Positions 1 through 64,000 of a stretch of 64,000 nucleotides of DNA are shown here, one piece after another. Position 1 is the stretch's first letter; the number at the start of each line of letters is the position of its first letter. The translations under genes were made by a program, and so were the position numbers. Origin of the DNA: Chamaelirium japonicum (lineage: Eukaryota; Streptophyta; Magnoliopsida; Liliales; Melanthiaceae); contig CANTAL010000024.1 of the NCBI GenBank assembly GCA_947650365.1, forward strand, positions 248,001-312,000. The letters run 5' to 3'. The notes beneath the pieces are model-generated. The model was not told the DNA's origin and did no database searches. It worked only from the letters and a program-made list of their open reading frames with translations.

Positions 1-689
1 TTCATTCATATGATCCATTCTAATTCCTTCGTATGATCCATTCTATTTCATTCGTACGATCCATTCTAATTCATTCATACGATCCTTTCGTATCCATTCT
101 AATTCATTCGTACGATCCATTCTAATTCATTCGTATGATCCATTCTAATTCCTTTGTACGATCCATTCTAATTCATTCGTACGATCCATTCTAATTCATT
201 CGCACGATCCATTCTAATTCATTCATACGATCTATTCTAATTCATTCGTACGATCTATTCTATTTCATTCGTACAATCAATTCTTACTCAATCGTATGAT
301 CCATTCTAATCCATTCGCACAATCTATTCTAATTTATTCGTACGATCCATTCTATTTCATTCGTACGATCCATTCTAATTCATTCGTACAATCCATTCTA
401 ATTCATTCGTACGATCCATTCTAATTCATTCATACGATCCATTCTATTTCATTCGTACGATCCATTCTTACTCATTCGTACGATCCATCCTAATTCATTT
501 CAACGAAGGTATCCATTCTAATTCATCCGTACGATCCATTCTAATTCATTCATACGATCCAATCTAATTCAATCATACGATCCATTCTAATTCATTCGCA
601 CGAATATATCCATTCTAATTCATTCGCACGATCCATTCTAATTCATTCATACAATCCATTCTAATTCTTTTGCACGAATGTATCCATTA
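1..689 (+). repeat. Satellite block F1
   Basis: Open at the window edge. Contains 28-bp units near 505, 604 and 674. Leaves through TATCCATTAGAATG. Confidence 0.93.
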
Positions 690-1274
690 GAATGAATTAG
701 AATGGATCGTACGAATGAATTAGAATGGATCGTACGAATGAATTAGAATGGATTGAATTAGAATGAATCGTACGAATGAATTAGAGTTGATACATTCGTG
801 TGAATGAATTAAAATGGATAATACGAATGAATTAGAATGGATTGTATGAATGAATTAGAATGGATCGTGCGAATGAATTAGAATGGATACATTCGTGCGA
901 ATGAATTAGAATGGATCGTATGAACGAATTAGATTGGATCGTATGCATGAATTAGAATGGATCGTGCGAATGAATTAGAATGGATCGTGCGAATGAATTA
1001 GAATGGATCGTACGAATGAATTAGAATGGATCGAACGAATGAATTAGAATGGATCGTACGAATAAGTAAGAATGGATCGTACGAATGAATTAGAATGGAT
1101 CGTACGAATAAATTAGAATGGATACATTCGTGCGAATGAATTAGAATGGATCATATGAATGAATTAGAATGGATCGTTTGAGTGAATGCGAATGGATCGT
1201 GCGAATGAATTAGAATGGATTGTACGAATGAATTAGAATCGATCGTACGAATGAATTAGAATGGATACATTCGT
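690..1274 (-). repeat. Satellite block R1
   Basis: Has a 38-bp unit near 745, the GAGTTGATACATTCGTGTG marker near 784 and GTTTGAGTGAATGCG near 1186. Confidence 0.93.
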
Positions 1275-1885
1275 GCGAATCCATTCTTTTTCATTCGTAC
1301 GATCCATTCTAATTCATTCGCATGATCCCTTCTAATTCATTCATACGATCCATTCTAATTCATTCGTACAATCCATTCTAATTCATTCGTACGATCCATT
1401 CTAATTTATTCGCACAATCTATTCTAATTCATTCGTACGATCCATTCTAATTCATTCGCACGATCCATTCTAATTCATTCATACGATCCATTCTAGTTCA
1501 TTCGCACGAATGTATCCATTCCAATTCATACGTACGATCCATTCTAATTCATTCGCACAATCTATTCTAATTCTTCGTACGATCAATTCTAATTCATTCG
1601 CACGTATCCATTCTAATTCATTCATACGATCCATTCTATTTCTTTCGTACGATCCATTCTTACTCATTCGTACGATCCATTCTAATTCATTCGTACGATC
1701 CATTCTAATTCATTTGCACGATCCATTCTAATTCATTCATACGATCCATTCTAATTCATTCGCACGATCCATTCTAATTCATTCGCACGATCCATTCTAA
1801 TTCATTCATACAATCCATTCTAATTCTTTTGCACGACTGTATCCATTCTAATTCATTCGTACGATCCATTCTAATTCATTCGTAT
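1275..1885 (+). repeat. Satellite block F2
   Basis: Entered through CATTCGTGCGAATCC at 1268. Holds the rare GCACGACTGTATCC unit near 1831. A spurious open frame with a 23-residue period spans 1510-1731. Confidence 0.93.
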
Positions 1886-2408
1886 GGAGGAATTAGAACG
1901 GATCGTACGAAGGAATTAGAATGGATAGTACGAATGAATTAGAATGGATACCTTCGTGCAAATGAATTAGAATGGATCGTACGAATGAGTAAGAATGGAT
2001 CGTACGAATGAAATAGAATGGATCGTACGAATGAATTAGAATATGAAATAGAATGAATTAGAATGGATTAGAATGGATCGTATGAGTGTGAATAAATTAG
2101 AATGGATTGTGCGAATGAATTAGAATGGATCATACGAAGGAATTAGAATGGATCGTACGAATGAATTAGAATGGATCGTACGAATGAATTAGAATGGATT
2201 GAATGGATACATTCGTGCGAATGAATTAGAATGGATCGTACGAATGATTTAGAATGGATAGTACGGATGAATTAGAATGGATACCTTCGTGCAAATGAAT
2301 TAGAATGGATCGTACGATAAGAATGGAACGTACGAATGAATTAGAATGGATCGTAGAATGGATCGTATGATTGAATTAGAATGGATCGTACGAATGAAAT
2401 AGAATGGA
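1886..2408 (-). repeat. Satellite block R2
   Basis: Entered through GTATGGAGGAATTAG. Units are broken at 2041-2085 (GAATATGAAATAG, GGATTAGAATGG), which is where the inverted-duplication arm ends. Confidence 0.92.
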
Positions 2409-2558
2409 TTCGCACGAATGTATCCATTCTAATTCATTCGTACGATCCATTCTAATTCATTCGTACAATCTATTCTAACTCATTCGTACGATCCATTCTA
2501 ATTCATTCGCACGATCCATTCTAATTCATTAATATGATCCATTCTAATTCATTCGTAC
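2409..2558 (+). repeat. Satellite block F3
   Basis: Short island. Entered through TTCGCACGAATGTATCC at 2409, left through CATTCGTACGAAGG. Confidence 0.92.
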
Positions 2559-2940
2559 GAAGGAATTAGAATGTATAGTTCGAATGAATTAGAATGGATA
2601 CCTTCGTGCAAATGAATTAGAATGGATCGTACGAATGAGTAAGAATGGATCGTACGAATGAAATAGAATGGATCGTACGAATGGATTAGAATGGATCGTA
2701 CGAATGAGTAAGAATGGATCGTACGAATGAATTAGAACGGATTGAATTAGAATGAATCATTGAATGAATTAGAATGGATCGTACGAATGAATTAGAATGG
2801 ATCGTGCGAATGAATTAGAATGGATCGTACGAATGAATTAGAATGGATCGTACGAATGAAATAGAATGGATCGTGTGAATGAATTAGAATGGATCGTGCG
2901 AATGAATTAGAATGGATCGTACGAATGAAATAGAATGGAT
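2559..2940 (-). repeat. Satellite block R3
   Basis: Begins with the AAGG, TAGTTCG and ACCTTCGTGC (2599) series of the 374-bp repeat, then a 38-bp unit near 2735. Confidence 0.92.
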
Positions 2941-3571
2941 TCGCACGAATGTATCCATTCTAATTCATTCGTACAATCCATTCTAATTCATTCGTACAAT
3001 CCTTTCTAATTCATTCGCACGATCCATTCTTACTCATTCGTACGATCCATTCTAATTCATTTGCACGAAGGTATCCATTCTAATTCATACAATCCATTCT
3101 AATTCATTCATACGATCCAATCTAATTCATTCATACGATCCATTCTAATTCATTCGCACGAATGTATCCATTCTAATTCATTCGTACGATCCATTATAAT
3201 TCATTCGCACAATCTATTCTAATTCATTCATACGATCCATTCTAATTCATTCGTACGATCTATATTCTAATTCATTCGCACGATCCATTCTAATTCATTC
3301 ATACGATCCATTCTAATTTATTCGCACGATCCATTCTAATTCATTCGTACGATCCATTCTATTTCATTCGTACAATTCGTTCTAATTCATTCGCACGATC
3401 CATTCGTATTCACTCAAACGATCCATTCTAATTCATTCATACAATCCATTCTAATTCTTTTGCACGAATGTATCCTTTCTAATTCATTCGTACGATCCAA
3501 ATTCATTTATCCGTACGATCTATTCTATTTCATTCGTACGATCCATTCTTATCGTACGATCCATTCTAACG
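2941..3571 (+). repeat. Satellite block F4
   Basis: Entered through TTCGCACGAATG at 2940. Irregular CCAAATTCATTTATCCG at 3497 and CTTATCGTACG near 3548 are shared with 48227. Leaves through CATTCTAACGAATG. Confidence 0.92.
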
Positions 3572-4260
3572 AATGAATTAGAATGGATCATGCAAATGAA
3601 TTAGAATGGATCGTGCGAATGAATTAGAATGGATCGTATAAATGAATTCGAATGGATCGTATGAATGAAATAGAATGGATCGTACGAATGAATTAGAATG
3701 GATCGTGCGAATGAATTAGAATGGATCGTACGAATGAATTAGAATGGATCGTATGAATGAATTAGAATGGATCATGCGAATGTATTAGAATGGATCGTAC
3801 GAATGAATTTGAATGGATACATTCGTGCGAATGAATTAGAATGGATCATACGAAGGAATTAGAATGGATCGTACGAATGAATTAGAATGGATCGTACGAA
3901 TGAACTAGAATGGATACATTCTTGCGAATGAATTAGAATGGATCATACGAATGAGTAAGAATGGATCGTGCGAATGAATTAGAATGGATCATATGAATGA
4001 ATTAGAATGGATCGTATGAATGAATTAGAATGGATCGTGCGAATAAATTAGAATGGATCGGATGAATGAATTAGAATAGATTGTGCGAATGAATTAGAAT
4101 GGATCGTACGAATGAATTAGAATGGATACATTCGTGCGAATGAATTAGAATGGATCGTATGAATGAATTAGAATCGATCGTACGAATGAATTAGAATGGA
4201 TCATGCGAATGAATTAGAATGGATTGAATTAGAATGAATCGTACGAATGAGTAAGAATGG
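3572..4260 (-). repeat. Satellite block R4
   Basis: Mixed CGTGCG, CGTATG and CATACG units. Ends with GAGTAAGAATGG into GGATCC at 4259. Confidence 0.93.
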
Positions 4261-4326
4261 ATCCATTCTATTTCATTCGTACGATCCATTCTAATTCATT
4301 CATACGATCCTTTCTAATTCCTTCGT
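4261..4326 (+). repeat. Satellite block F5 (island)
   Basis: About three units between GGATCC and CTTCGTACGAATG. Duplicated at 52153. Confidence 0.9.
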
Positions 4327-4391
4327 ACGAATGAATTAGAATGGATTGCATGAATGAATTAGAATAGATCGTACGAATGAATTAGAATGGA
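4327..4391 (-). repeat. Satellite block R5 (island)
   Basis: About three units including TGCATGAATG. Leaves through CGTACGAAATGTATCC. Confidence 0.9.
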
Positions 4392-4779
4392 TCGTACGAA
4401 ATGTATCCATTCTAATTCATTCGTACGGTCCATTCTAATTCATTCGTATGATCCATTCGTACTCATTCGTACGATCCAATCTAATTCATTCATACGATCC
4501 ATTCTACGATCCATTCTAATTCATTCGTACGTTCCATTCTAATTCATTCGTACGATCCATTCAAATTCATTAATACGATCCATTCTAATTCATTCGCATG
4601 ATTCATTCTAATTCATTCATACGATCCATTCTAATTCATTCGTACGATCCATTCTAATTCATTCGTACGATCCACTCTAATTTATTCACACTAATGAATC
4701 CATTCTAATTCATTCGTACGATCGATTCTAATTCATTCAAACGATCCATTCTAATTCATTTGCACGAATGTATCAATTC
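4392..4779 (+). repeat. Satellite block F6
   Basis: Contains the CTACGATCC joint near 4505, the CGTACGTTCC unit and CACACTAATGAATCC near 4687. Leaves through TCAATTCTAAATGAATTAG. Confidence 0.92.
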
Positions 4780-5737
4780 TAAATGAATTAGAATGGATCG
4801 TACGAATGATTAAGAATGGATCGTGCGAATGAATTAGAATGGATCATATGAATGAATTAGAATGGATCGTATGAATGAATTAGAATGGATCGTGCGAGTA
4901 AATTAGAATGGATCGTACGAATGAATTAGAATGGATCATGCGAATGAATTAGAATGGATCATACGATTGAGTAAGAATGGATTGTATGAATGAAATAGAC
5001 TAGATCGTACGAATGAATTAGAATGGATCGTATGAATGAATTAGAATCGATCGTACGAATGAGTAAGAATGAATCGTACGAATGAATTAGAATGGATCGT
5101 ACGAATGAATTAGAATGGATCGTACGAATGAATTAGAATGGATCGTACGAATGAATTAGAATGGATCGTGCGAATAAATTAGAATGGATCGTATGAGTGT
5201 GAATGAATTAGAATGGATCATGCGAATGAATTAGAATGGATCGTATTAATGAATTAGAATGGATCGTGCGAATGAATTAGAATGGATCGTACAAATGAAT
5301 TAGAATGGATACATTCGTGCGAATGAATTAGAATGGATCGTATGAATGAATTAGAATCAATCATACGAATGAATTAGAATGGATCGTGCGAATGAATTAG
5401 AATGGATACATTCGTGCGAATGAATTAGAATGAATCGTATGAATGAATTAGAGTGGATACATTCGTACAAATGAATTAGAATGGATCGTACGAATGAATT
5501 AGAATGGATACATTCGTGCGAATGAATTAGAATGGATCATATGAATGAATTAGAATGGATCGTTTGAGTGAATTAGAATAGATTGTGCGAATGAATTAGA
5601 ATGGATCGTACGAATGAATTAGAATGGATCGTGCGAATAAATTAGAATGGATCATATGAATGAATTAGAATGGATCGTGCGAATGAATTAGAATATAGAT
5701 CGTACGAATGAATTAGAATGGATCGTACGAATGAATT
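4780..5737 (-). repeat. Satellite block R6
   Basis: Nearly 1 kb of R units with 28-bp ACATTCGTGCG units near 5308, 5408 and 5508. Leaves through GAATTCGAATGTATCC. Confidence 0.93.
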
Positions 5738-6170
5738 CGAATGTATCCTTTCTAATTCATTCGTACGATCCATTCTAATTCATTCGTACGATCAATTCTA
5801 ATTCATTCGTACGATCCATTCTAATTCATTCGCACGATCCATTCTAATTCATTCGTACGATTCATTCTAATTCAATCCATTCTAATTCATTCGTACGATC
5901 CATTCTTACTCATTCGTTCGATCCATTCTAATTCATTCGCACGATCCATTCTAATTCATTAATACGATCCATTCTAACTCATTCGCACGATCCATTCTAA
6001 TTCATTCACACAATCCATTCTATTTCATTCGTATGATCCATTCTAATTCATTCGCACGATCCATTCTAATTCATTCATACGATCCATTCTAATTCATTCA
6101 TACGATCCATTCTAATTCATTCGCACGATCCATTCTAATTCATTCGCACGATCCATTCTAATTCATTCGT
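5738..6170 (+). repeat. Satellite block F7
   Basis: Has a 38-bp unit near 5860. Ends at the perfect palindrome centred at 6170/6171. Confidence 0.93.
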
Positions 6171-6190
6171 ACGAATGAATTAGAATGGAT
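6151..6190. repeat. 40-bp perfect palindrome at an F-to-R switch
   Basis: Centre ATTCATTCGTACGAATGAAT (6161-6180), extended perfectly by 10 bp on each side. The axis falls between 6170 and 6171, inside CGTACG. Confidence 0.97.
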
Positions 6191-6640
6191 TCATTCGTGC
6201 GAATGAATCAGAATGGATCGTACGAATGAATAAGAATGGATCGTACGAATGAATAAGAATGGATCGTACGAATGAATTAGAATGGATTGAATTAGAATGA
6301 ATCGTACGAATGAATTAGAATGGATCGTACGAATGAATTAGAATGGATCGTACGAATGAATAGAATGGATTGAATTAGAATGAATCGTACGAATGAATAA
6401 GAATGAATCATACCATACGAATGAATTAGAATGGATCATACGAAGGAATTAGAATGGATCGTGCGAATAAATTAGAATGGATCGTACGAATGAATTAGAA
6501 TAGATTGTGCGAATGAATTAGAATGGATCGTACGAATGAATTAGAATGGATCTTACGAATGAATTAGAATGGATCGTATGAATGAATTAGAATGGATCGT
6601 GCGAATGAATTAGAATGGATCGTACGAATGAAATAGAATG
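6171..6640 (-). repeat. Satellite block R7
   Basis: Two 38-bp units (near 6280 and 6365), then GAATCATACCATACGAATG near 6404. Confidence 0.92.
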
Positions 6641-7023
6641 GATTCGCACAAATGTATCCATTCTAATTCATTCGTACGATCCATTCTAATTCATTCGTAT
6701 AATCCATTCTAATTCATTCGCATGATCCATTCGCAATCACTCAAACGATCCATTCTAATTCATTCATATGATCCATTCTAATTCATTCGTTCGATCCATA
6801 CTAATTCATTCGTACGATCCATTCTAATTCATTCGCACAATCTATTCTAATTCATTCGTACGATCCACTCTAATTCATTAATACGATCCATTCTAATTCA
6901 TTCGTACAATCCATTCTAATTCATTCGCACGTCCATTCTAATTCATTCGTACGATCCATTCTAATTCATTCGCACGATCCAATCTAATTCATTCGTACGA
7001 TCCATTCTAATTCATTTATACAT
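6641..7023 (+). repeat. Satellite block F8
   Basis: Entered through TTCGCACAAATGTATCC at 6643. Contains CGCAATCACTCAAACG near 6730. Leaves through TATACATGTACGAATG. Confidence 0.92.
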
Positions 7024-7949
7024 GTACGAATGAATTAGAATGGATACATTCGTGCGAATGAATTTGAATGGATCGTATGAATGAATTAGATTGGATCGTA
7101 TGCATGAATTAGAATGGATCGTGCGAATGAATGAGAATGGATCGTACGAATGAATTAGAATGGATTGAACGAATGAATTAGAATGGATACATTCGTGCAA
7201 AATAATTAGAATGGATTGTATGAATGAATTAGAATGGATCGTACGAATGAATTAGAATGGATCGAACGAATGAATTAGAATGGTTCGAATTAGAATGGAT
7301 CGTGCGAATGAATTAGAATATGGATCGTACGAATGAATTAGAATGGATCGTGCGAATGAATTAGAATGGATCGTACGAATGAATTAGAATAGACTGTGCG
7401 AATGAATGAGAATGGATCGTACGAATGAATTAGAATGGATCGTACGAATGAATTAGAATGGATCATACGAATGAATTGGAATGGATACATTCGTGCGAAT
7501 GAATTAGAATGGATCGTATGAATGAATTAGATTGGATCGTATTAATGAATTAGAATGGATCGTGCGAATGAATTAGAATGGATCGTACGAATGAATTAGA
7601 ATGGATAGATTTGTGGGAATGAATTTGAATGGATCATACGAAGGAATTAGAATGGATCGTACGAATGAATTAGAATGGATCGTAAGAATGAATTAGAATG
7701 GATCGTACGAAGGAATTAGAATGGATAGTACGAATGAATTAGAATGGATACCTTCGTGCAAATGAATTAGAATGGATCGTACGATTGAGTAAGAATGGAT
7801 CGTACGAATGAAATAGAATGGATCGTATGAATGAATTAGAATGGATCGTGCGAATGAATTAGAATGGATCGTACGAATGAATTAGAATAGATTGTGCGAA
7901 TGAATTAGAATGGATCGTGCGAATGAATTAGAATGGATCATACGAATGA
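7024..7949 (-). repeat. Satellite block R8
   Basis: Starts at the ACATGTACG switch shared with 31852 and 60354. Contains a short GGTTCGAATTAG unit near 7282 and the AAGG/ACCTTCGTGC series at 7705-7790. Confidence 0.93.
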
Positions 7950-9900
7950 GTTCATTTGCACGAAGGTATCCATTCTAATTCATTTGTACTATCCATTCTA
8001 ATTCCTTCGTACGATCCATTCTAATTCCTTCGTACGATCCATTCGGATACATTCGTGCGAATCCATTCTATTTCATTCAAACGATCCATTCTAATTCATT
8101 CGCACGATCCATTCTAATTCATTCATACGATCCATTCTAATTCATTCATACGATCCATTCTAATTCATTCATACGATCCATCCTAATTCATTCGCACGAA
8201 TGTATCCATTCTTATTCATTCGTACAATCCATTCTATTTCATTCGTACGATCCATTCTTACTCATTCGCACAATTTATTCTAATTCATTCGTACGATCCA
8301 TTCTAAGTCATTCGCACGATCCATTCTAATTCATTCATACGATCCATTCTATTTCATTCGTACGATCCATTCTTACTCAATCGTACGATCCATTCTAATT
8401 CATTTGCACGAAGGTATCCATTCTAATTCATTCGTACTATCCATTCTAATTCCTTCGTACGATCTATTCTAATTCCTTCGTACGATCCATTCTAATTCAT
8501 TCGTACGATCCATTCTAATTCATTCATACGATCCATTCTAATTCATTCGTATGATCCATTCAAATTCATTCGCATGAATCTATCCATTCTAATTCATTCG
8601 TACGATCCATTCTAATTCATTCGCACGATCCATTCTAATTCATTAATACGATCCAATCTAATTCATTAATACGATCCAATCTAATTCATTCATACGATCC
8701 ATTCTAATTCATTCGCACGAATGTATCCATTCCAATTCATTCGTACGATCCATTCTAATTTATTCGTTCGATCCATTCTAATTCATTCGTACGATCCATT
8801 CTCATTCATTCGCACAATCTATTCTAATTCATTCGTACGATCCATTCTAATTCATTCGCACGATCCATTCTAATTCATTCGTACGATCTATATTCTAATT
8901 CATTCGCACGATCCATTCTAATTCGAACCATTCTAATTCATTCGTACGATCCATTCTAATTCATTCGTACGATCCATTCTAATTCATGCATACGATCCAT
9001 TCTAATTCATTACTACGATCCATTCTAATTCATTCGTACGATCCATTCTAATTCCTTCGTATGATCCATCCTAATTTATTCGCACAATCCATTCTAATTC
9101 ATTCGCACGATCCATTCTAATTCATTCGTACGATCCATTCTATTTCATTCGTATGACCCATTCTAATTCATAAGTACGATCCATTCTAATTCATTCGCAC
9201 GATCCATTCTAATTCATTCATATGAATCCATTCTTTTTCATTCGTACGATCTATTCTATTTCATTCGTACAATCTATTCTAATTCATTCAAACGATCCAT
9301 TCTAATTCATTCATACGATCCTTTCTAATTCATACGATCTATTCTAATTCATTCGTACGATCCATTCTAATTCATTCGCACAATCTATTCTAGTTCATTC
9401 TAATTCACTCGCACGATCCATTCTAATTCATTCATACGATCCATTCTAATTCATTCGCACGAATGTATCCATTCTAATTCATTCGCACGATCCATTCTAA
9501 TTCATTCATACAATCCATTCTTACTCATTCGTATTATCCATTTTAATTCATTCACACGAATGTATCAACTCTAATTCATTCGTACGATTCATTCTAATTC
9601 AATCCATTCTAATTCATTCGTACGATCCATTCTAATTCATTCGTACGATCCATTCTAATTTATTCATACGATCCATTCTAATTCATTCGTACGATCCATT
9701 CTAATTTATTCGTACAATCCATTCTAATTCATTCGCACGATCCATTCGCATTCACTCAAACGATCCATTCTAATTCATTCATATGATCCATTCATTCGTA
9801 CGATCCATTCTTACTCATTCGTACGATCCATTCTAATTCATTTGCACGAAGGTATCCATTCTAATTCATTCGTACTATTCGTGCGATCCATTCATTCGTA
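7950..9900 (+). repeat. Satellite block F9
   Basis: About 1.95 kb in F. One embedded fold-back unit, CGGATACATTCGTGCGAATCC, at 8044 does not change the overall sense. GTATGACCC and CATAAGTACG markers lie near 9151-9178. Confidence 0.92.
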
Positions 9901-10031
9901 CGAAAGAATTAGAATGGATTGTATGAATGAATTAGAATGGATCGTGCGAATGAATTAGAATACGAATGAATTAGAATGGATCGTACGAATGAATTAGAAT
10001 AGATTGTGCGAATGAATTAGAATGGATCTGG
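9901..10031 (-). repeat. Satellite block R9
   Basis: Entered through CATTCGTACGAAAGAATTAG. Leaves through the CTGGATCGTGTATCC joint. Confidence 0.9.
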
Positions 10032-10042
10032 ATCGTGTATCC
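10028..10042. repeat. CTGGATCGTGTATCC switch motif
   Basis: Irregular 15-bp joint at an R-to-F switch. Identical copies lie at 22482, 35311, 46741 and 54532, and a reverse-complement copy at 34666-34680, each also at an R-to-F switch. A truncated relative without the flip, CTGGATCGAATGG, lies near 51983. Confidence 0.9.
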
Positions 10043-10082
10043 ATTCTAATTCATTCGTACGACCCATTCTAATTCATTCGTA
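10032..10082 (+). repeat. Satellite block F10 (island)
   Basis: About two F units with a CGACCC change, ending CATTCGTACGAATTAG. Confidence 0.88.
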
Positions 10083-10256
10083 CGAATTAGAATGGATACA
10101 TTCGTGCGAATGAATTAGAATGGATACATTCGTGCGAATGAATTAGAATGGATCGTGCGATTGAATTAGAATGGATCGTGCGATTGAATTAGAATAGATT
10201 GTGCTAATGAATTAGAATGGATCGTATGAATGAATTAGAATGGATACATTCGTGCG
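10083..10256 (-). repeat. Satellite block R10
   Basis: Two 28-bp ACATTCGTGCG units in succession, then TGTGCTAATG. Leaves through CATTCGTGCGAATCC at 10247. Confidence 0.9.
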
Positions 10257-11128
10257 AATCCATTCTATTTCATTCGTACGATCTATTCTAATTCATTCGC
10301 ACGATCCATTCTAATTCATTCATACGATCCATTCTAATTCCTTCGTACGATCCATTCTAATTCATTCGTACGATCCATTCTAATTCCTTCATATGATCCA
10401 TTCTAATTCATTCGTACGGTATGATTCATTCTAATTCATTCGTACAATTCATTCTAATTCAATCCATTCTAATTCATTCGTACGATCCATTCTAATTTCT
10501 TCGTATGATCTATTCTAATTCCTTCGTACGATCTATTCTATTTCATTCGTACGATCCATTCTAATTCATTCGTACGATCCATTCTAATTCATTCGTACGA
10601 TCCATTCTAATTCATTCGTACGATTCATTCTAATTCAATCCATTCTAATTCATTCCATTCTAATTCATTCGCACGATCCATTCGCATTAACTCAAACGAT
10701 CCATTCTAATTCAGTCATACAATCCATTCTAATTCTTTTGCACGAATGTATCCATTCTAATTCATTCGTACGATCCATTCTAATTCATTCGTATGATCTA
10801 TTCTAATTCATTCGCATGATCCATTGTAATTCCTTCGTACGATCTATTTTAATTCATTCGCACGATCCATTCTAATTCATTCATACAATCCATTCTAATT
10901 CATTCGTACGATCCATTCTAATTTCTTCGTATGATCTATTCTAATTCCTTCGTACGATCCATTCTAATTCATTCGCACGATCCATTCTAATTCATTCATA
11001 CGATCCATTCTAATTCATTCGTACGATCCATTCTAATTCCTTCGTATGATCCATTCTAACTCATTCGCACGATCCATTCTAATTCATTCGCACAATCTAT
11101 TCTAATTCATTCGTACGATCCATTCTAA
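10257..11128 (+). repeat. Satellite block F11
   Basis: GTACGGTATGATTC marker near 10416, 38-bp units near 10448 and 10624. Ends in the 60-bp palindrome. Confidence 0.93.
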
Positions 11129-11158
11129 TTAGAATGGATCGTATGAATGAATTAGAAT
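11099..11158. repeat. 60-bp palindrome with one mismatch at an F-to-R switch
   Basis: Axis between 11128 and 11129, in TCTAATTAGA. The central 30 bp are perfect, and the only mismatched pair is 11113/11144. A second switch of the same TCTAATTAGAATG type lies near 25758. Confidence 0.95.
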
Positions 11159-38994: not shown

Positions 38995-39014
38995 ATCCTT
39001 TCTAATTCCTTCGT
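38912..39014 (+). repeat. Satellite block F32 (island)
   Basis: About four units ending CCTTTCTAATTCCTTCG, then CGTACGAATG. Confidence 0.89.
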
Positions 39015-52775: not shown

Positions 52776-53170
52776 TTCGTATGATCCATTCTAATTCATT
52801 CACACAATCCATTCTAATTCATTCACACTCATACGATTTATTCTAATTCATTCGCACGAATGTATCCGTTCTAATTCATTCGTACGATCCATTCTAATTC
52901 ATTCTCACAATCTATTCTAATTCATTCGAACAATCCATTCTAAGTCATTCGTATGATCCATTCTAATTCATTCGCACGATCCATTCGCATTCACTCAAAC
53001 GATCCATTCTAATTCATTCATATGATCCATTCTAATTCATTCGCACGAATGTATCCATTCTAATTCATTCGTACGATCCATTCTAATTCATTCGTACGAT
53101 CCATTCTAATTCATTCGCACGATCCATTCTAATCCATTCTAATTCATTCGTATGTATCCATTCTAATTCA
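52776..53170 (+). repeat. 395-bp tandem duplication, copy 1
   Basis: Carries a distinctive series: CACACTCATACGATTTATTC (52824), CGCACGAATGTATCCGTTC, CTCACAATCTATTC, CGAACAATCC, TAAGTCATTCG, then CGCATTCACTCAAACG. The ATACGATTTA marker at 52831 recurs at 53226. The left limit is approximate. Confidence 0.9.
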
Positions 53171-53500
53171 TTCGTACGATCCATTCTAATTCATTCGCAC
53201 AATCCATTCTAATTCATTCACACTCATACGATTTATTCTAATTCATTCGCACGAATGTATCCGTTCTAATTCATTCGTACGATCCATTCTAATTCATTCT
53301 CACAATCTATTCTAATTCATTCGAACAATCCATTCTAAGTCATTCGTATGATCCATTCTAATTCATTCGCACGATCCATTCGCATTCACTCAAACGATCC
53401 ATTCTAATTCATTCATATGATCCATTCTAATTCATTCGCACGAATGTATCCATTCTAATTCATTCGTACGATCCATTCTAATTCATTCGTACGATCCATT
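53171..53500 (+). repeat. 395-bp tandem duplication, copy 2
   Basis: Repeats the rare combination of copy 1, including ATTTATTC, CTCACAATC and CGAACAATCC, so it is a recent tandem copy. A more diverged relative follows with its ATACGATCC marker at 53661, without the ATTTATTC and CTCACAATC changes. Older relatives with CACTCATAC lie near 13614, 32906 and 54482. Confidence 0.88.
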
Positions 53501-54511
53501 CTTACTCATTCGTACGATCCATTCTAATTCATTCGCACGATCCATTCTAATTCATTCATATAATCCATTCTACTTCTTTTGCACGAATGTATCCATTCTA
53601 ATTCATTCGTACGATCCATTCTAATTCATTCGCACAATCCATTCTAATTCATTCACACTCATACGATCCATTCTAATTCATTCGCACGAATGTATCCGTT
53701 CTAATTCATTCGTACGACCCATTCTAATTCATTCGCACAATCTATTCTAATTCATTCGAACGATCCAATGTAAGTCATTCGTATGATCCATTCTAATTCA
53801 TTCACACGATCCATTCTAATTCATTCGTACGATCCATTCTATTTCATTCGTATGACCCATTCTAATTCATAAGTACGATCCATTCTAATTCATTCGCACG
53901 ATCCATTCTAATTCATTCATACGAATCCATTCTATTTCATTCGTACGATCTATTCTATTTCATTCGTACAATCTATTCTAATTCATTCATACGATCCATT
54001 CTAATTCATTCGTACGATTCATTCTAATTCATTCGCACGCTATTCTAATTCATTCGTAGGATCCATTCTAATTCATTATTACGATCCATTCTAATTCATC
54101 CATACGATCCATTCTAATTCATTCGTACGATCCATTCTAATTCATTCGTACGATCCATGCTAATTCATTCGTACGATCCATTCTAATTCATGCGCACAAT
54201 CTATTCTAATTCATTCGCACAATCCATTCTAATTCATTCGCACGAATGTATCCATTTTAATTCATTCGTACGATCCATTCTAATTCATTCGTACGATCCA
54301 TTCTTACTCATTCGTACGATCCATTCTAATTCATTCGCACGATCCATTCTAATTCATTCATACAATCCATTCTACTTCTTTTGCACGAATGTATCCATTC
54401 TAATTCATTCGTACGATCCATTCTAATTCATTCGTACGATCCATTCTAATTCATTCGCACAATCCATTCTAATTCATTCACACTCATACGATCCATTCTA
54501 ATTCATACCGT

Positions 54512-54538
54512 ACGAATGAATTAGAATGGATCTGGATC
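54512..54538 (-). repeat. Satellite block R44 (shortest island)
   Basis: A single R unit between CATACCGTACG and CTGGATCGTGTATCC. Confidence 0.85.
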
Positions 54539-54710
54539 GTGTATCCATTCTAATTCATTCGTACGATCCATTCTAATTCCTTCGTATGATCCATTCTAAT
54601 TCATTCGCACGAATGTATCCATTCTAATTCATTCCTACGATCCATTCTAATTCATTCGTACGGTATGATTCATTCTAAACGATCCATTCTAATTCATTCG
54701 CACAATCATT
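54539..54710 (+). repeat. Satellite block F45
   Basis: GTACGGTATGATTC near 54658, followed by a broken CTAAACGATCC joint. Leaves through CACAATCATTCGTGCG. Confidence 0.89.
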
Positions 54711-55097
54711 CGTGCGAATGAATTAGAATGGATCGTATGAATGAATTAGAGTGGATACATTCGTACAAATGAATTAGAATGGATCGTACGAATGAATTAG
54801 AATGGATACATTCGTGCGAATGAATTAGAATGGATCGTATGAATGAATTAGATTGGATCGTATGAATGAATTAGAATGGATTGTATGAATTAGAATGGAT
54901 ACCTTCGTGCAAATGAAATAGAATGGATCGTACGAATGAATTAGAGTAGATTGTGCGAATGGATTAGAATGGATTATAGGATCGTACGAATGAATTAGAA
55001 TGGATCGTACGAATGAATTAGAATGGATCGTATGAATGAATTAGAATGGATCGTGCGAATGAATTAGAATGGATCGTACGAATGAAATAGAATGGAT
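54711..55097 (-). repeat. Satellite block R45
   Basis: First part of compound-repeat copy A, with GAGTGGATAC and GATTGTATGAATTAG. Confidence 0.92.
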
Positions 55098-55166
55098 TCG
55101 CACGAATGTATCCATTGTAATTCATTCGTATGATCCATTCTAATTCATTCGTACAATCCATTCTAA
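55098..55166 (+). repeat. Satellite block F46 (island)
   Basis: Three F units between TTCGCACGAATG and CTAATACGAACAAATTAG. Confidence 0.9.
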
Positions 55167-55708
55167 TACGAACAAATTAGAATGGATCGTACGAATGAAT
55201 TAGAATGGATCGTATGAATGAATTAGAATGGATCGTGCGAATGAATTAGAATGGATCGTACGAATGAATTAGAATGGATTGTATAAATGAATTAGAATGG
55301 ATCGTGCGAATGAATTAGAATGGATCGTACGAATGAAGTAGAATGGATCGTATGAATGAATTAGAATGGATCGTGCGAATGAATTAGAATGGATAGTATG
55401 AATGAATTAGAATGGATACCTTCGTGCAAATGAATTAGAATGGATCGTACGAATGAGTAAGAATGGATCGGACGAATGAAATAGAATGGATCGTATGAAT
55501 GAATTTGAATGGATCGTGCGAATGAATTAGAATGGATCGTATGAATGAATTAGAATAGATTGTGCGAATGAATTAGAATGGATCATACGAATGAATTAGA
55601 ATGGATCGTACGAATGAATTAGAATGGATCGTATGAATGAATTAGAATGGATCGTGCGAATGAATTAGAATGGATCGTACGAATGAATTAGAATGGATAC
55701 ATTCGTGC
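55167..55708 (-). repeat. Satellite block R46
   Basis: GGATAGTATG at 55391, ACCTTCGTGC, GAGTAAG. Leaves through CATTCGTGCGAATCC at 55700. Confidence 0.92.
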
Positions 55709-56243
55709 GAATCCATTCTATTTCATTCGTACGATCCATTCTAATTCATTCGTACGATCCATTCTAATTCATTCGTACGATCCATTCTAATTCATTCGTA
55801 CGATCCATGCTAATTTATTCGCACAATCTATTCTAATTCATTCATACGATCCTTTCTAATTCATTCGCACGATCCATTCTAATTCATTCGTACGATCCAT
55901 TCTTACTCATTCGTACGATCCATTCTAATTCATTTGCACGAAGGTATCCATTCTAATTCATTCGTACTATCCATTCTAATTCCTTCGTACGATCCATTCT
56001 AATTCCTTCGTACGATCCATTCTTATCGTACGATCCATTCTAATTCAATCCATTCTAATTCATTCGTACGATCCATTCTAATTCATTCGTACGATCCATT
56101 CTAATTTATTCGTACGATTCATTCTAATTCAATCCATTCTAATTCATTCGTACGATCCATTCTATTTCATTCGAACGATCCATTCTAATTCATTCGCACG
56201 ATCCATTCTAATTCATTCATACGATCCATTCTAATTCATTCGT
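55709..56243 (+). repeat. Satellite block F47
   Basis: GCACGAAGG near 55936, CTTATCGTACG at 56022, 38-bp units. Ends at a CGTACG-centred palindrome at 56243. Confidence 0.92.
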
Positions 56244-56737
56244 ACGAATGAATTAGATTGGATCGTATGAATGAATTAGAATGGATTGAATTAGAATGAA
56301 TCGTACGAATGAATTAGAATGAATCATACCGTACGAATGAATTAGAATGGATCATACGAAGAAATTAGAATGGATCGTATGAATGAATTAGAGTGGATAC
56401 ATTCGTACAAATGAATTAGAATAGATCGTACGAATGAATTAGAATGGATACATTCGTGCGAATGAATTAGAATGGATCGTATGAATGAATTAGATTGGAT
56501 CGTATGAATGAATTAGAATGGATTGTATGAATTAGAATGGATACCTTCGTGCAAATGAAATAGAATGGATCATACGAATGAATTAGAGTAGATTGTGCGA
56601 ATGGATTAGAATGGATCATAGGATCGTACGAATGAATTAGAATGGATCGTACGAATGAATTAAAATGGATCGTATGAATGAATTAGAATGGATCGTGCGA
56701 ATGAATTAGAATGGATCGTATGAATGAAATAGAATGG
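56244..56737 (-). repeat. Satellite block R47
   Basis: 38-bp unit at 56284, CATACCGTACG near 56326, then compound-repeat copy B from 56393. Confidence 0.92.
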
Positions 56738-56808
56738 ATTCGCACGAATGTATCCATTCTAATTTATTCGTACGATCCATTCTAATTCATTCGTACAATC
56801 CATTCTAA
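56738..56808 (+). repeat. Satellite block F48 (island)
   Basis: Second copy of the three-unit island ending CTAATACGAATAAATTAG. Confidence 0.9.
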
Positions 56809-57139
56809 TACGAATAAATTAGAATGGATCGTACGAAAGAATTAGAATGGATCGTATGAATGAATTAGAATGGATGGTGCGAATGAATTAGAATGGATCG
56901 TACGAATGAATTAGAATTGATTGTGCGAATGAATTAGAATGGATTGTACGAATGAATTAGAATGGATCGTACTAATGAATTAGAATGGATCGTATGAATG
57001 AATTAGAATGGATCGTGCGAACGAATTAGAATGGATCGTACGAATGAAATAGAATGGATCGTATGAATGAATGAGAATGGATCGTGCGAATGAATTAGAA
57101 TGGATAGTATGAATGAATTAGAATGGATACCTTCGTGCA
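56809..57139 (-). repeat. Satellite block R48
   Basis: GGATGGTGCG near 56874, then GGATAGTATG at 57102. Leaves through CTTCGTGCAAGTACGATCC. Confidence 0.91.
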
Positions 57140-57663
57140 AGTACGATCCATTCTAATTCATTCATACGATCCATTCTAATTCATTCGTACGATCCATTCT
57201 AATTCATTCGTACGATCCATTCTAATTTATTCGCAAAATCTATTCTAATTCATTCATACGATCCATTCTAATTCATTCGCACGATCCATTCTAATTCATT
57301 CATACGATCCATTCTATTTCATTCGTACGATCCATTCTTACTCATTCGTACGATCCATTCTAATTCATTTGCACGAAGGTTTCCATTCTAATTCATTCGT
57401 ACTATCCATTCTAATTCCTTCGTACGATCCATTCTAATTCCTTCGTACGATCCATTCTTATCGTACGATCCATTCTAATTCATTCGTACGATCCATTCTA
57501 ATTCATTCGTACGATCAATTCTAATTCATTCGTACGATTCATTCTAATTCAATCCATTCTAATTCATTCGTACGATCCATTCTATTTCATTCGCACGATC
57601 CATTCTAATTCATTCGCACGATCCATTCTAATTCATTCATACGATCTATTCTAATTCATTCGT
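57140..57663 (+). repeat. Satellite block F49
   Basis: GCACGAAGGTTTCC near 57370, CTTATCGTACG at 57457. Ends at a CGTACG-centred palindrome at 57663. Confidence 0.92.
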
Positions 57664-58158
57664 ACGAATGAATTAGAATGGATCGTATGAACGAATTAGA
57701 ATGGATTGAATTAGAATGAATCGTACGAATGAATTAGAATGAATCATACCGTACGAATGAATTAGAATGGATCATACGAAGGAATTAGAATGGATCGTAT
57801 GAATGAATTAGAGTGGATACATTCGTACAAATGAATTAGAATGGATCGTACGAATGAATTAGAATGGATACATTCGTGCGAATGAATTAGAATGGATCGT
57901 ATGAATGAATTAGATTGGATCGTATGAATGAATTAGAATGGATTGTATGAATTATAATGGATACCTTCGTGCAAATGAAATAGAATGGATCGTACAAATG
58001 AATTAGAGTAGATTGTGCGAATGGATTAGAATGGATCATAGGATCGTACGAATGAATTAGAATGGATCGTACGAATGAATTAGAATGGATCGTATGAATG
58101 AATTAGAATGGATCGTGCGAATGAATTAGAATGGATCGTACGAATGAAATAGAATGGA
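57664..58158 (-). repeat. Satellite block R49
   Basis: Third copy of the 38-bp unit + CATACCGTACG + GAGTGGATAC series. Confidence 0.92.
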
Positions 58159-58640
58159 TTCGCACGAATGTATCCATTCTAATTCATTCGTACGATCCAT
58201 TCTAATTCATTCGTACAATCCATTCTAATACGAATGAATTAGAATGGATCGTACGAATGAATTAGTATGGATCGTATGAATGAATTAGAATGGATCGTGC
58301 GAATGAATTAGAATGGATCGTACGAATGAATTAGAATGGATCGTACGAATGAATTAGAATGGATCGTACGAATGAATTAGAATGGATCGTGTGAATGAAT
58401 TAGAATGGATCGTACGAATAAAATAGAATGGATCGTATGAATGAATTAGAATGGATCGTGCGAATGAATTAGAATGGATAGTACGAATGAATTAGAATGG
58501 ATACCTTCGTGCAAATGAATTAGAATGGATCGTACGAATGAGTAAGAATGGATCGTACGAATGAAATAGAATGGATCGTATGAATGAATTAGAATGGATC
58601 GTGCGAATGAATTAGAATGAATCGTACGAATGAATTAGAA
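57813..58640. repeat. Compound higher-order repeat, copy C (partial, about 0.83 kb)
   Basis: Begins with the same GAGTGGATACATTCGTAC unit, carries the ATCATAGGATCG joint at 58036 and the F island 58159-58228 ending CTAATACGAA, and has two monomers fewer than copy B before GGATAGTACG (58476). The match ends near the GGATCC switch at 58651, so this is the truncated edge of the tandem series. Confidence 0.9.
58159..58228 (+). repeat. Satellite block F50 (island)
   Basis: Third copy of the three-unit island ending CTAATACGAATG. Confidence 0.9.
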
Positions 58641-58650
58641 TGAATTAGAA
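58229..58650 (-). repeat. Satellite block R50
   Basis: GGATAGTACG at 58476, ACCTTCGTGC, GAGTAAG. Ends GAATTAGAATGAATTAG into GGATCC. Confidence 0.92.
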
Positions 58651-60361
58651 TGGATCCATTCTAATTCCTTCGTACGATCCATTCTAATTCATTCGTAAGA
58701 TCCATTCTAATTCATTCGTACGATCCATTCTACTTCCTTCGTATGATTCATTATAATTCATTCGTACGGTATGATTCATTCGTACGATTCATTCTAATTC
58801 AATCCATTCTAATTCATTCGTACGATCCATTCTAATTCATTCGTACGATCCATTCTAATTCATTCGTACGATTCATTCTAATTCAATCCATTCTAATTCA
58901 TTCATACGATCCATTCTTACTCATTCGTACGATCCATTCTAATTCATTCGCAGGAATGAATCCATTATAATTCATTCGTATGATCCATTCTAATTCATTC
59001 GCATGAATGTATCCATTCTAATTCATTCGTACGATCCATTCTATCTCATTCGTACAATCCATTCTATTTCATTCGTGCGATCCATTCTAATTCATTCGCA
59101 TGATCCATTCTAATTCATTTGCATGATCCATTCTAATTCATTCGTACGATCGATTCTAATTCATTCATACGATCCATTCTAATTCATTCACACGAATGTA
59201 TCCATTCTAATTCATTCGTACGATCCATTCTAATTCATTTGTAGGATCCATTCTAATTCATTCATACGATCCATTCCAATTCATTCGTACGATCTATTCT
59301 ATTTCATTCGTACAATCCTTTCTTAGTCAATCGTATGATCCATTCTAATCCATTCGCACAATCTATTCTAATTCATTCGTACGATCCATTCTATTTCATT
59401 CGTACGATCCATTCTAATTCATACGATCCATTCTATTTCATTCATACGATCCATTTTAATTCATTCGCACGATCCATTCTAATTCATTCATACAATCCAT
59501 TCTAATTCATTTATACGATCCATTTTAATTCATTCGCACAATCTATTCTAATTCATTCGTACGATCAATTCTAATTCATTAGCTTGATCCATTCTAATTC
59601 ATTCGTACGATCTATTCTATTTCATTCGTACAATCCATTCTTACTCAAGCGTATGATCGATTCTAATTCATTCATATGATCCATTCTAATTCATTCGCAC
59701 GAATGTATCCATTCTAATTCATTCGTACGATCCATTCTAATTCATTCGCACGATCAATTCTAATTCATTCATACGATCCATTCTATTTCATTCGTATGAT
59801 CCATTCTTACTCATTCGTACGATCCATCCTAATTCATTTGCACGAAGGTATCCATTCTAATTCATTCGTACTATCCATTCTAATTCCTTCGTACAATCCA
59901 TTCTAATTCCTTCGTACGATCCATTCTAATTCATTCGTACGATCCATTCTAATTCCTTCGTACGATCCATTCTAATTCATTCGTACGATCCATTCTAATT
60001 CATTCGTACGATCCATTCTAATTCCTTCGTACGATCCATTCTAATTCATTCGCACGATCCATTCTTACTCATTCGTACGATCCATTCTAATTCATTCGTA
60101 CGATCCATTCTAATTCATTCGTACGATCCATTCTAATTCCTTCGTATGATCCATTCTAATTCATTCGCACGATCCATTCTCCATTCTAATTCCTTCGTAC
60201 GATCCATTCTAATTCCTTTGTATCCATTCTAATTCACTCATACGATCCATTCTAATTTATTCATACGATCCATTCTAATTCATTCGCACGATCCATTCTA
60301 ATTCATTCATACAATCCATTCTAATTCATTCGTACGATCCATTCAAATTCATTCATACATG
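58651..60361 (+). repeat. Satellite block F51
   Basis: About 1.7 kb. GTACGGTATG near 58765, two CTTAGTCAATCG/CTTACTCAAGCG series near 59322 and 59640, a GCACGAAGG unit near 59839, and an unusually dense run of CCTTCG units at 59880-60220. Confidence 0.93.
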
Positions 60362-61658: not shown

Positions 61659-62217
61659 AATGAATTAGAATGGATACATTCATGCAAAAGAATTAGAATG
61701 GATTGTATGAATGAATTAGAATTGATCGTGCAAATGAATTAGAATGGATTGTGCGAATGAATTAGAATGGATAACACGAATGAATTAGAATAGATCGTAC
61801 GTATGAATTAGAATGGATACATTCGTGCGAATGAATTAGAATGGATTGTATGAATGAATTAGATTGGATCGTACGAATGAATTAGAATAGATTGTATGAA
61901 TTAGAATGGATACCTTCGTGCAAATGAAATAGAATGGATCGTACGAATAAATTAGAGTAGATTGTGCGAATGGATTAGAATGGATCATACGATTGAGTAA
62001 GAATGGATTGTACGAATGAAATAGAATAGATCGTACGAATGAATTAGAATGGATCGTACGAATGAATTAGAATGGATCGTTCGAATGAATTAGAATAGAT
62101 TGTGCGAATGAATTAGAATGGATCGTACGAATGAATTAGAATGGATCGTACGAATGAATTAGAATGGATCGTGCGAATGAATTAGAATGGATCATACGAA
62201 TGAAATAGAATGGATTC
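61659..62217 (-). repeat. Satellite block R52
   Basis: GATTGTATGAATTAG near 61887, ACCTTCGTGC near 61911, GATTGAGTAAG near 61991. Leaves through TTCGTATGAATG at 62215. Confidence 0.92.
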
Positions 62218-62784
62218 GTATGAATGTATCCATTCTACTTCATTCGTACGATCCATTCTAATTCATTCGTACAATCCATTCTAATTCATTCGCTCGATCC
62301 ATTCGCATTCACTCAAACGATCCATTCTAATTCATTCATACAATCCATTCGAATTCTTTTGCACGAATGTATCCATTCTAATTCATTCGTACGATCCATT
62401 CTAATTCATTCGTATGATCTATTCTAATTCACTCGCATGATCCATTCTAATTCCTTCGTACGATCCATTTTAATTCATTCGCACGATCCATTCTAATTCA
62501 TTCATACGATCCATTCAAATTCATTCGTACGATCCATTCTAATTTCTTCGTATGATCTATTCTAATTCCTTCGTACGATCCATTCCAATTCATTCATACG
62601 ATCTATTCTAATTCTTTTCGCACGAATGTATCCATTCTAATTCATTCGTACGATCCATTCTAATTCCTTCGTACGATCCATATTCTAATTCATTCGTACG
62701 ATCCATTCTAATTTATTCGTACAATCCATTCTAATTCATTCGCACGAATGTATCCATTCTAATTCATTCGTACGATCAATTCTA
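62218..62784 (+). repeat. Satellite block F53
   Basis: CGCATTCACTCAAACG near 62303, CGATCCATATTC near 62666. Leaves through CAATTCTACGAATTAG. Confidence 0.91.
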
Positions 62785-63496
62785 CGAATTAGAATGGATC
62801 GTATGAATGAATTAGAATGGATCGTGCGAATAAATTAGAATGGATCGTATGAATGAATTAGAATAGATTGTGCGAATGAATTAGAATGGATCGTATGAAT
62901 GAATTAGAATGGATACATTCGTGCGAATGAATTAAAATGGATCATACGAATGAATTAGAATGGATCATATGAATGAATTAGAATGGATCGTACGAATGAA
63001 TTAGAATGGATACATTCATGCGAATGAATTAGAATGGATCATACGAATGAATTAGAATGGATTCATTCGTGCGAATGAATTAGAGTGGATCGTACGAATG
63101 AGTAAGAATGGATCGTACGAATGAATTAGAATGGATTGAATTAGAATGAATCGTACGAATGAATTAGAATAAATCGTACGAATGAATTAGAATGGATCGT
63201 ACGAATGAAATAGAATGGATCGTATGAATGAATTAGAATGGATCGTGCGAATGAATTAGAATGGATCGTACGAATGAATTAGAATAGATTGTGCAAATGA
63301 ATTAGAATGGATCGTGCAAATGAATTAGACTGGATCGTACGAATGAATTACAATTAATTGTGCGAATGAATTAGAATGGATCGTACGAATGAATTAGAAT
63401 GGATCATACGAATGAATTAGAATGGATCGTATGAATGAATTAGAATGGATCGTGCGAATGAATTAGAATGGATCGTACGAATGAAATAGAATGGAT
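62785..63496 (-). repeat. Satellite block R53
   Basis: 38-bp unit near 63133. A damaged unit ACAATTAATTGTGCG near 63350. Leaves through TTCGCACGAATG at 63496. Confidence 0.92.
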
Positions 63497-63870
63497 TCGC
63501 ACGAATGTATCCATTCTAATTCATTCGTAAGATCCATTCTAATTCATTCGTACAATCCATTATAATTCATTCGCACGATCCATTCTAATTCATTCATACG
63601 ATCCATTCTATTTCATTCGTACGATCCATTCTTACTCATTCGTACTATCCATTCTTACTCATTCGTACGATCCATTCTAATTCATTCGTACAACCCATTC
63701 TAATTCATTCATACGATCCATTCTAATTCATTCGCATGATCCATTCTAATTCATTCGCACGATCCATTCTAATTCATTCATACGATCCATTCTAATCCAT
63801 TCATATGATCCACTCTAATTCATTCATACGATCCATTCTAATTCATTCGTACGATCTATTCTAATTCATT
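63497..63870 (+). repeat. Satellite block F54
   Basis: CGTACTATCC and CGTACAACCC variants near 63643 and 63687. Leaves through CATTCGGATCGTGCG. Confidence 0.92.
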
Positions 63871-64000
63871 CGGATCGTGCGAATGAATTAGAATGGATCT
63901 TACGAATGAATTATAATGGAACGTATAGATTGTGCGAATGAATTAGAATGGATCGTACGAATGAATTAGAATGGATTGTACGAATGAATTAGAATGGATC
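63871..64000 (-). repeat. Satellite block R54
   Basis: Short run of R units with one irregular GGAACGTATAGATTG joint near 63918. Continues past the window edge. Confidence 0.9.

Follow-up and report, generated by a model that had tools for sequence, protein, structure and literature searches.

Alternating orientation in a Chio1/Chio2 holocentromere array, and junctions that look inherited

The question raised by this locus is how a short tandem repeat comes to change direction more than a hundred times within 64 kb, and whether each change records an inversion of its own or an old breakpoint copied with the DNA around it. The window analysed here, a stretch of 64,000 bp (C36:248001-312000), lies in a contig of 2,067,022 bp outside the 12 chromosome-sized ones. 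Our preferred reading, to which we give a probability of roughly 0.8, is that of a holocentromere Chio array in which few founding strand-switches were followed by orientation-blind copying of flip-bearing segments. Many flips look inherited, old breakpoints having been copied with DNA segments, and not the products of separate inversions.

A known satellite in both senses

The whole window is made up of a 23-bp repeat in either sense, with the cyclic consensus ATCCATTCTAATTCATTCGTACG. Stretches of 23 bp matching it at at least 16 of 23 positions cover 99.997% of the window, as against 82 of 63,978 such stretches at 16/23 in a single base-shuffled control, and the autocorrelation has a period of 23 with a value of 0.756. 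Mixed among the 23-mers is a 28-bp variant carrying a 5-bp insertion, which the preliminary description, right about the 23-bp unit, had missed. A scan of the window at Rfam gathering scores returned no families. The human (CATTC)n satellites HSat2 and HSat3 have CATTC-like words and a simple short unit, as here, and identity with these is ruled out by the 23-bp unit with its TCGTACGA and by the plant assembly.

The preliminary description could not name the family, which can now be named. Chio1 and Chio2, of 23 and 28 bp, are the CENH3-bound satellite of the Chionographis japonica holocentromere according to ChIP (Kuo et al. 2023, PMC10264360); the same paper describes their arrays as a mixture of forward and reverse and PMC12722358 calls them 'frequently alternating', so that neither the repeat nor its alternation of sense is new to the literature. 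The window resembles Chio as described in PMC10264360 in its monomer lengths (23 bp dominant, 28 bp minor), in the relation of the two forms (TTCGTACGATCC against TTCGCACGAATGTATCC, Chio1 being Chio2 minus 5 bp plus one substitution), in its mixed orientation and in a similar genome share, and no contradiction to its membership was found. The fit is to this description and to a 9-mer, TTCGTACGA, present at the monomer junction in the window and stated also in PMC12722358. The window is a stretch of one Chio1/Chio2 holocentromere array of Chionographis japonica. The 8 bp of the monomer common to both senses, TCGTACGA, is probably the 8-bp dyad of PMC10264360. The 60-bp Chama satellite from the macro-monocentromeres of Chamaelirium luteum, in the sister genus, shares the 9-mer and dyad symmetries, but differs from Chio in its monomer and in its consistent orientation over hundreds of kb (PMC12722358).

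Exact copies in the genome number 2,218,412 for the Chio1-like 23-mer and 459,215 for the Chio2-like 25-mer; scaled by the former the satellite makes up 18.3% of the assembly (published, about 16-17%) and by the latter 377.5 Mb (about 25%), a difference that makes the estimate of genome share rough. The assembly totals 1,518.7 Mb in 3,253 contigs, as compared with a published 1,526.1 Mb in 3,786 primary contigs. Its chromosome-sized contigs (C1-C12) sum to 1,090,673,439 bp, the 12 published chromosomes to 1090.73 Mb, and its N50 contig, C8, has 81,106,678 bp, the published N50 being 81.11 Mb (all published values from PMC10264360). The next contig after the 12 large ones, C13, has 3.89 Mb. Frames of 532 aa for cox1 without internal stops are, as a separate observation, many in this genome. 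Such frames are plant-like, and with a genome of 1.52 Gb they led to the rejection of a prokaryotic origin; the assembly statistics, which match those published for Chionographis japonica, then decided the matter.

A cyclic HMM with two orientations, run at several switch penalties, divides the window into 108 blocks with 107 flips at penalties of 1e-5 and 1e-7, and into 110 and 116 blocks at 1e-4 and 1e-3. Forward (F) blocks total 34,557 bp and reverse (R) blocks 29,443 bp, and block size ranges from 32 to 3,511 bp (median 476.5); the commonest phase jump, that of the 28-bp variant, is of 5 bases (215 cases). Simulated one-orientation arrays, built with the base frequencies of the window and with phase jumps, gave 0 flips in 10/10 runs. 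The direction flips in the window are real. The preliminary description had counted about 107 of them, with near-balanced senses (some 34.5 and 29.5 kb) and blocks from one unit to 3.5 kb, all of which the HMM bears out, and the GC-skew plot that it proposed as a check gives the expected sign in 54/54 F and 54/54 R blocks.

Recurrent junctions and the dyad

Features of the window (positions in the window)
Feature	Position	Strand	Basis or remark
Satellite array, Chio1 (23 bp)/Chio2 (28 bp), 108 blocks of alternating orientation	1..64000		unbroken
Right end of arm 1, inverted duplication of ~16.8 kb	1..2040	+	exact shared 60-mers
RF-A junction, example (flip at 2421)	2390..2450		GGATACATTCGTGCGAATCC on other strand
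RF-C, R>F junction class (GGATCTGGATCGTGTATCC), example	10015..10065		6 window copies
Arm 2 of inverted duplication	41898..58641	-	alignment to arm 1
Rare R>F junction (GAATGGATCTGAATCGAATGGATCCATTC)	44102..44130		11 exact copies in genome
Local higher-order repetition of flip pattern	55109..58652		HMM blocks and junction classes
F>R junction via TTCGTACGAA dyad, example	56239..56248		sequence

Junctions recur, in either orientation and across several contigs. Clustered at a threshold of 0.9, the 53 R>F flips of the window fall into 10 classes and the 54 F>R flips into 24. The dominant class, RF-A, accounts for 26/53 R>F flips, split 10 to 16 between the two orientations, and has 11,954 exact copies genome-wide where the reversed control has 0. 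The 27-mer of RF-C, found in the window also at 22491, 34670 (inverted), 35320, 46750 and 54541, has 2,104 + 2,164 exact copies in the genome. In the local higher-order repetition one F>R class returns at 55168, 56810 and 58230, together with three F blocks of 59 bp and two R blocks of 503 bp.

The principal alternative is that every flip is its own inversion at a hairpin or dyad hotspot, recurrence then reflecting use of the hotspot and not descent. The phase pair of the TCGTACGA dyad, present in 19/54 F>R flips of the window, favours such a process, as do the diverse flanks of the F>R dyad junctions (pairwise identity 0.68, 0.64 and 0.55 with distance; n=29 pooled, one perhaps a Chio2 variant), which are compatible with repeated formation of F>R junctions at the dyad. 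Perfect 24-bp dyad palindromes of both kinds also occur genome-wide, 4,361 of the F>R and 3,509 of the R>F kind; against this, the sum of about 7,900 compares with an extrapolated 420,000 flips. These strict 24-mers imply that a strong asymmetry between F>R and R>F is absent. An apparent 5:1 excess of F>R dyad junctions (53,392 vs 10,710 exact matches) was rejected, the count being inflated by the Chio2 variant: CATTCGTACGAATG arises from Chio2 by one substitution too, as in 14/32 pooled matches (8 were true junctions and 10 other). A one-mismatch search for F>R dyads, mixed with the same variant, was left out of the results.

RF-A itself argues against separate inversions. A neighbouring non-consensus base (TATTTC) hitchhikes with the junction in 29/31 matches, the other two having one the consensus and one another base, as compared with a background of 148/1,849 monomers (8%; Fisher p 3e-32 for 29 vs 1, leaving out the 'other' copy). 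Likewise, its flanks grow less alike away from the junction, with identities of 0.89, 0.82 and 0.74 against a background of 0.77, 0.60 and 0.52. In the pooled samples, at a threshold of 0.92, F>R flips are more diverse than R>F flips (48 vs 24 classes, 27 vs 14 singletons), so that a fair share of flips, though less than half, may have arisen independently. These counts draw mostly on C36 (114 of the 194 kb), and they are not independent since sample L019 and the window share one duplication.

Segments copied with their flips

The window holds much of an inverted duplication of about 16.8 kb. Its first arm extends from about -14,776 to 2,040 relative to the window (C36:233,224-250,040), the right limit being the edge of the query slice, with exact shared 60-mers ending at ~2,027. 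The arms have 98.8% identity over 16,836 aligned columns, with 91 mismatches and 111 gap letters. Each carries 33 flips, and 33/33 are mirrored, as against a mean of 10.8 and a maximum of 22 in slid controls, a result that the separate-inversion reading does not lead one to expect. Taken with the behaviour of RF-A, this leaves that reading already strained, and we regard it as improbable, if still the strongest of the rivals.

Copying appears in both senses on smaller scales also. Pairs within the window of at least 250 bp at at least 95% identity number 23 direct and 26 inverted, of which 7 and 10 hold flips. Exact matches of at least 120 bp number 98 direct and 78 inverted within pieces, and 95 and 116 between pieces of C36 or C1; at at least 180 bp on the same contig inverted matches outnumber direct ones (29 vs 10), largely from the 16.8-kb duplication. 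Since the strand of a contig is arbitrary, orientation balance between contigs is uninformative, and only within-contig counts were used. Runs of matches that seemed to lie on a single strand of C2 were set aside, since they look like a product of the way in which positions are listed.

The two arms flanking a flip are, by comparison, no closer to each other than unrelated arms. Arm-to-arm likeness in the window is 0.823 for own and 0.824 for unrelated arms at F>R flips (32 junctions) and 0.833 and 0.842 at R>F flips (31 junctions), a result that speaks against chimeric reads and against foldbacks of recent date; a model of recent foldback inversion was rejected, its identity test being without signal. 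The array had been described as inversion-prone and foldback-rich. The foldback-rich geometry and the flips stand, whereas 107 separate events are probably an overstatement, given recurrent junction classes and segments copied whole.

The course of events under the inherited-breakpoint reading can be outlined as follows. A limited set of founding strand-switches would have brought both orientations into the arrays, probably as microhomology joins and in some cases at the self-complementary TCGTACGA dyad. Each block finds homology in either sense, so that recombination would thereafter be blind to orientation, and later homologous recombination within or between arrays, whether gene conversion, break-induced copying or crossing-over, could have copied segments of some 0.1 to 17 kb together with their flips, either directly or inverted. 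What we infer here are the pathway of recombination, the initiating role of the dyad and whatever part the flips may play in centromere function. Interlocus gene conversion, microhomology and eccDNA have each been put forward in published holocentromere work, and the present data do not separate these.

Selection, assembly and the spread of arrays

A functional explanation would have selection keep the flips, the foldback geometry of inter-monomer hairpins aiding CENH3 loading or centromere identity. For Chio, a hairpin has been predicted and dyad symmetries are reported, although the authors state that the role of the hairpin is unknown (PMC10264360), and flips are present in 13/13 further satellite samples (187 flips in 130 kb). 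The Chama arrays of the sister species are, however, consistently oriented and still CENH3-bound (PMC12722358), and block lengths in the window are near exponential (CV 0.996) and hence give no sign of spacing control, making selection a quite unlikely cause. That missed-adapter palindromic reads or hifiasm misjoins made the flips is very improbable and appears to have no support: although the contig lies outside the chromosome-sized scaffolds and arrays of this kind challenge assembly, missed adapters predict near-identical arms where those here are ~82-83% alike, as unrelated arms are, the junctions are found again on other contigs and have exact copies by the thousand, and the published assembly combines HiFi at 58.5x with Hi-C (PMC10264360).

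If flips have been inherited by copying, each junction is a recognisable join, and joins shared between units on different chromosomes would trace that copying. Junction classes, mirrored segmental copies and two sequence groups do not appear in main-text passages of PMC10264360. The sampled arrays split into two such groups, that of the window comprising 7/12 samples near chromosome ends and 0/10 interior samples, a small number of samples in all. A classifier trained without L019, which repeats part of the held-out window in inverted form, made 25/25 correct held-out calls at 1.2 kb and 120/123 at 250 bp; the group of one sample, at 134.91 Mb on C1, is unclear. Tentatively, and at a little under even odds, there may be at least two recombining pools, one so far only near ends and including, by likeness of sequence, the window's contig, the other interstitial, with flip-bearing segments spreading between chromosomes within a pool regardless of orientation and junctions serving as pedigree markers. 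Such markers could, if this is true, show how a holocentromere is seeded and spreads, and junction genealogies on public data would make it possible to test whether holocentromeres built of repeats expand by interlocus gene conversion, eccDNA or inversions. The split between ends and interior, if it holds, would suggest that arrays could exchange sequence where chromosome ends associate physically. Of the copies of the rare junction GAATGGATCTGAATCGAATGGATCCATTC, 5/11 lie on chromosome-sized contigs, at distances of 0.5-2.1 Mb from the end of the contig.

The satellite and its orientation blocks

The whole of the window is filled, in one sense or the other, by a 23-bp tandem repeat, ATCCATTCTAATTCATTCGTACG (cyclic), with a 28-bp variant mixed in among the 23-bp units. 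A two-orientation cyclic HMM divides it into 108 blocks of 32-3,511 bp separated by 107 flips, with 34,557 bp in the F and 29,443 bp in the R sense, and the preliminary description of about 107 flips, some 34.5 kb F and 29.5 kb R, and blocks of up to 3.5 kb is thus accurate. The block count rises only from 108 to 116 across a 10,000-fold range of the switch penalty, 10 of 10 simulated one-orientation arrays yield no flips, and GC skew, the strand check which that description proposed, has the expected sign in 108/108 blocks. The family, left without a name there, can be placed as the Chio1/Chio2 satellite of Chionographis japonica. The monomer contains the 9-mer TTCGTACGA, given in text passages of PMC12722358 as common to that satellite and the Chama satellite of the sister genus. 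Passages of the same paper term the satellite's orientation 'frequently alternating'. Not only the repeat but also what it does and the mixing of its orientations have thus been published before. The text passages of PMC10264360 and PMC12722358 contain neither quantified junction classes nor groups distinguishing ends from interior, which their figures or supplements may hold.

The assembly comprises 1,518,659,071 bp in 3,253 contigs, the window lying at C36:248001-312000. The chromosome-sized contigs C1-C12 total 1,090,673,439 bp, C13 measures 3.89 Mb, and the N50 contig across the whole assembly is C8 (81,106,678 bp); these values match the published assembly of Chionographis japonica, given in passages of PMC10264360 as 12 scaffolds, 1090.73 Mb and an N50 of 81.11 Mb. 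One exact 23-mer has 1,115,993 forward and 1,102,419 reverse copies genome-wide. As a side observation, cox1 has at least 100 matches or fragments among the matches listed, on contigs C514 to C3216 and others, many with equal top score; the copies are free of internal stops, as fits a plant, and mitochondrial DNA apparently occupies many separate contigs of the assembly.

Twenty 10-kb samples were taken, of which the 13 with at least 95% satellite were used and seven excluded (five with 0-4% satellite, L020 from the right flank with 15% and L025 with 54%). Each of the 13 has 9-27 called flips, and after removal of blocks <20 bp their 130 kb contain 187 junctions (1.44/kb) vs 107 in the 64 kb of the window. 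Scaling from exact copies of Chio1, the published 23-bp unit, suggests that satellite makes up ~278 Mb of the genome and carries some 420,000 flips, an order of magnitude only, because scaling by the 28-bp Chio2 gives 378 Mb instead.

Copied segments and recurrent junctions

Matching arms would be expected about a flip that arose from a recent hairpin inversion or from a read with a missed adapter. Where both blocks are at least 160 bp (44 of the 107 junctions, with shorter blocks, being left out), own-arm identity is 0.823 vs 0.824 for unrelated arms at F>R flips (32 junctions) and 0.833 vs 0.842 at R>F flips (31 junctions), which argues against recent foldbacks or chimeras. Within the window, pairs of at least 250 bp at ≥95% identity number 23 direct and 26 inverted, and flips lie inside 7 and 10 of these, respectively. 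The largest inverted pair extends into the left flank (samples L019 and L051) as an inverted duplication (see table). For each of the 33 flips of its arm 1 a counterpart lies no more than 100 bp from the mirrored coordinate, while mirrors slid by 150-700 bp pair a mean of 10.8 and a maximum of 22. Segments, flips included, are copied in either sense.

Strand-symmetric clustering at a threshold of 0.9 places the 53 R>F flips of the window in 10 classes (26, 13, 6, 2 and six singletons), the class of 13 linking three or more sequences in a looser chain, and the 54 F>R flips in 24 (19, five of 3, two of 2 and 16 singletons), the class of 19 being likewise heterogeneous. At six thresholds tried, in the window and in pooled samples, R>F classes were about half as many as F>R classes, or fewer. 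The largest R>F class, RF-A, is one precise join, whose 26 copies divide 10 to 16 between the two senses. With at most 2 mismatches allowed, RF-A matches the window at 31 places. TATTTC stands beside the join in 29 of these, the consensus TAATTC in one and a different word in one, against 148 TATTTC vs 1,701 TAATTC among all monomers. Flank identity among RF-A copies falls with distance from 0.894 through 0.817 to 0.744 (n=55), the background being 0.774, 0.600 and 0.519 (n=120). The exact RF-A 30-mer has 5,984 + 5,970 copies genome-wide (reversed control, 0), including on C1 at least 21 among the matches listed, spread over 1.75-134.9 Mb. In a pooled set of 293 junctions from 194 kb, RF-A comprises 52 (C36 43, C16 7, C1 1, C40 1), and another R>F class, RF-G2, comprises 18 (C1 7, C20 2, C40 2, C60 3, C100 1, C150 3; none in C36 or C16), with flanks 95-98% identical over six contigs (n=17) and 7,650 + 7,562 exact genome-wide copies of its 26-mer. 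In contrast to both, a rare junction that the window contains once is present in the whole genome as just 11 exact copies. Many flips thus look inherited. The five chromosomal sites of the rare junction each lie 0.5-2.1 Mb from a contig end.

Coordinates of the duplication, the rare junction and the classified samples
Feature	Location	Sense	Basis or extent
Inverted duplication	arm 1 about window -14,776..2,040; arm 2 41,898..58,641	inverted	16,836 aligned columns, 98.8%
Rare junction sites	C2:2.10, C3:1.75, C4:92.83, C11:0.48, C12:67.99 Mb; also C14, C36, C62		exact genome-wide search
Group 1 end samples	C2, C3, C8, C11 left; C4, C11 (69.0 Mb), C12 right		25-mer classifier
Group 2 end samples	C1 left, C5 left, C7 left, C11 at 68.0 Mb		25-mer classifier
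Interior samples	6 C1 + 3 C11, group 2; C1 at 114.58 Mb, unclear		25-mer classifier

Two sequence pools

Sharing of 31-mers parts 19 ten-kb pieces cleanly into two groups, with 23-38% shared within C36 and C16 (group 1; 51-66% where the inverted duplication overlaps), 29-38% within C1, C20, C40, C60, C100 and C150 (group 2) and 12-18% between the groups. A 25-mer classifier trained without the duplicated stretch of the window is correct for held-out window chunks in 25/25 (1.2 kb) and 120/123 (250 bp) cases and for C16 in 8/8; for group 2, leaving one piece out under an earlier training, the figures are 49/49 (1.2 kb) and 255/273 (250 bp). Group 1 is found in 7 of 12 chromosome-end samples (at most 2.5 Mb from a contig end) and in 0 of 10 interior samples, the latter representing two chromosomes only (C1 and C11). 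Among the end samples, C2, C3, C4, C11 left and C12 were picked for proximity of the rare junction and are thus biased, and C8, C5, C7 and the C11 sites at 68.0 and 69.0 Mb were chosen blind. The C4 assignment is weak (159 vs 104 words), the C1 right end was group 2 under the first classifier and unclear after retraining, and C1 left is not an independent test, because its pieces served as training; the C1 samples were drawn from match lists. Satellite was present at 5 of 40 probed C11 positions. RF-A occurs in three C1 samples (75.60, 114.58 and 134.91 Mb), and so is not limited to group 1.

A possible origin of the flips and a neighbouring element

From the class counts we infer that founding strand-switches, fewer of the R>F and more of the F>R type, would have brought both orientations into the arrays, the 8-bp palindrome TCGTACGA, common to both senses, offering a probable natural switch point; at F>R junctions on this dyad the flanks are diverse. 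Later, orientation-blind recombination would have copied segments together with their flips, inside an array and from one array to another, with gene conversion, break-induced replication and eccDNA as candidate pathways. As routes of spreading, passages of PMC10264360 on Chionographis japonica consider interlocus conversion, microhomology and eccDNA. The imbalance between R>F and F>R classes could be a matter of chance as to which founders spread.

About 1.4 kb beyond the right end of the window the satellite array is broken, in sample L020 (C36:312001-322000), by an LTR retrotransposon whose gag-pol-like frame of 1,178 aa reads on the minus strand; positions 1471 and 9330 of L020 mark two copies of one stretch, 99% alike. 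Judging from its protein, we take this element to be Ty1/copia-like.
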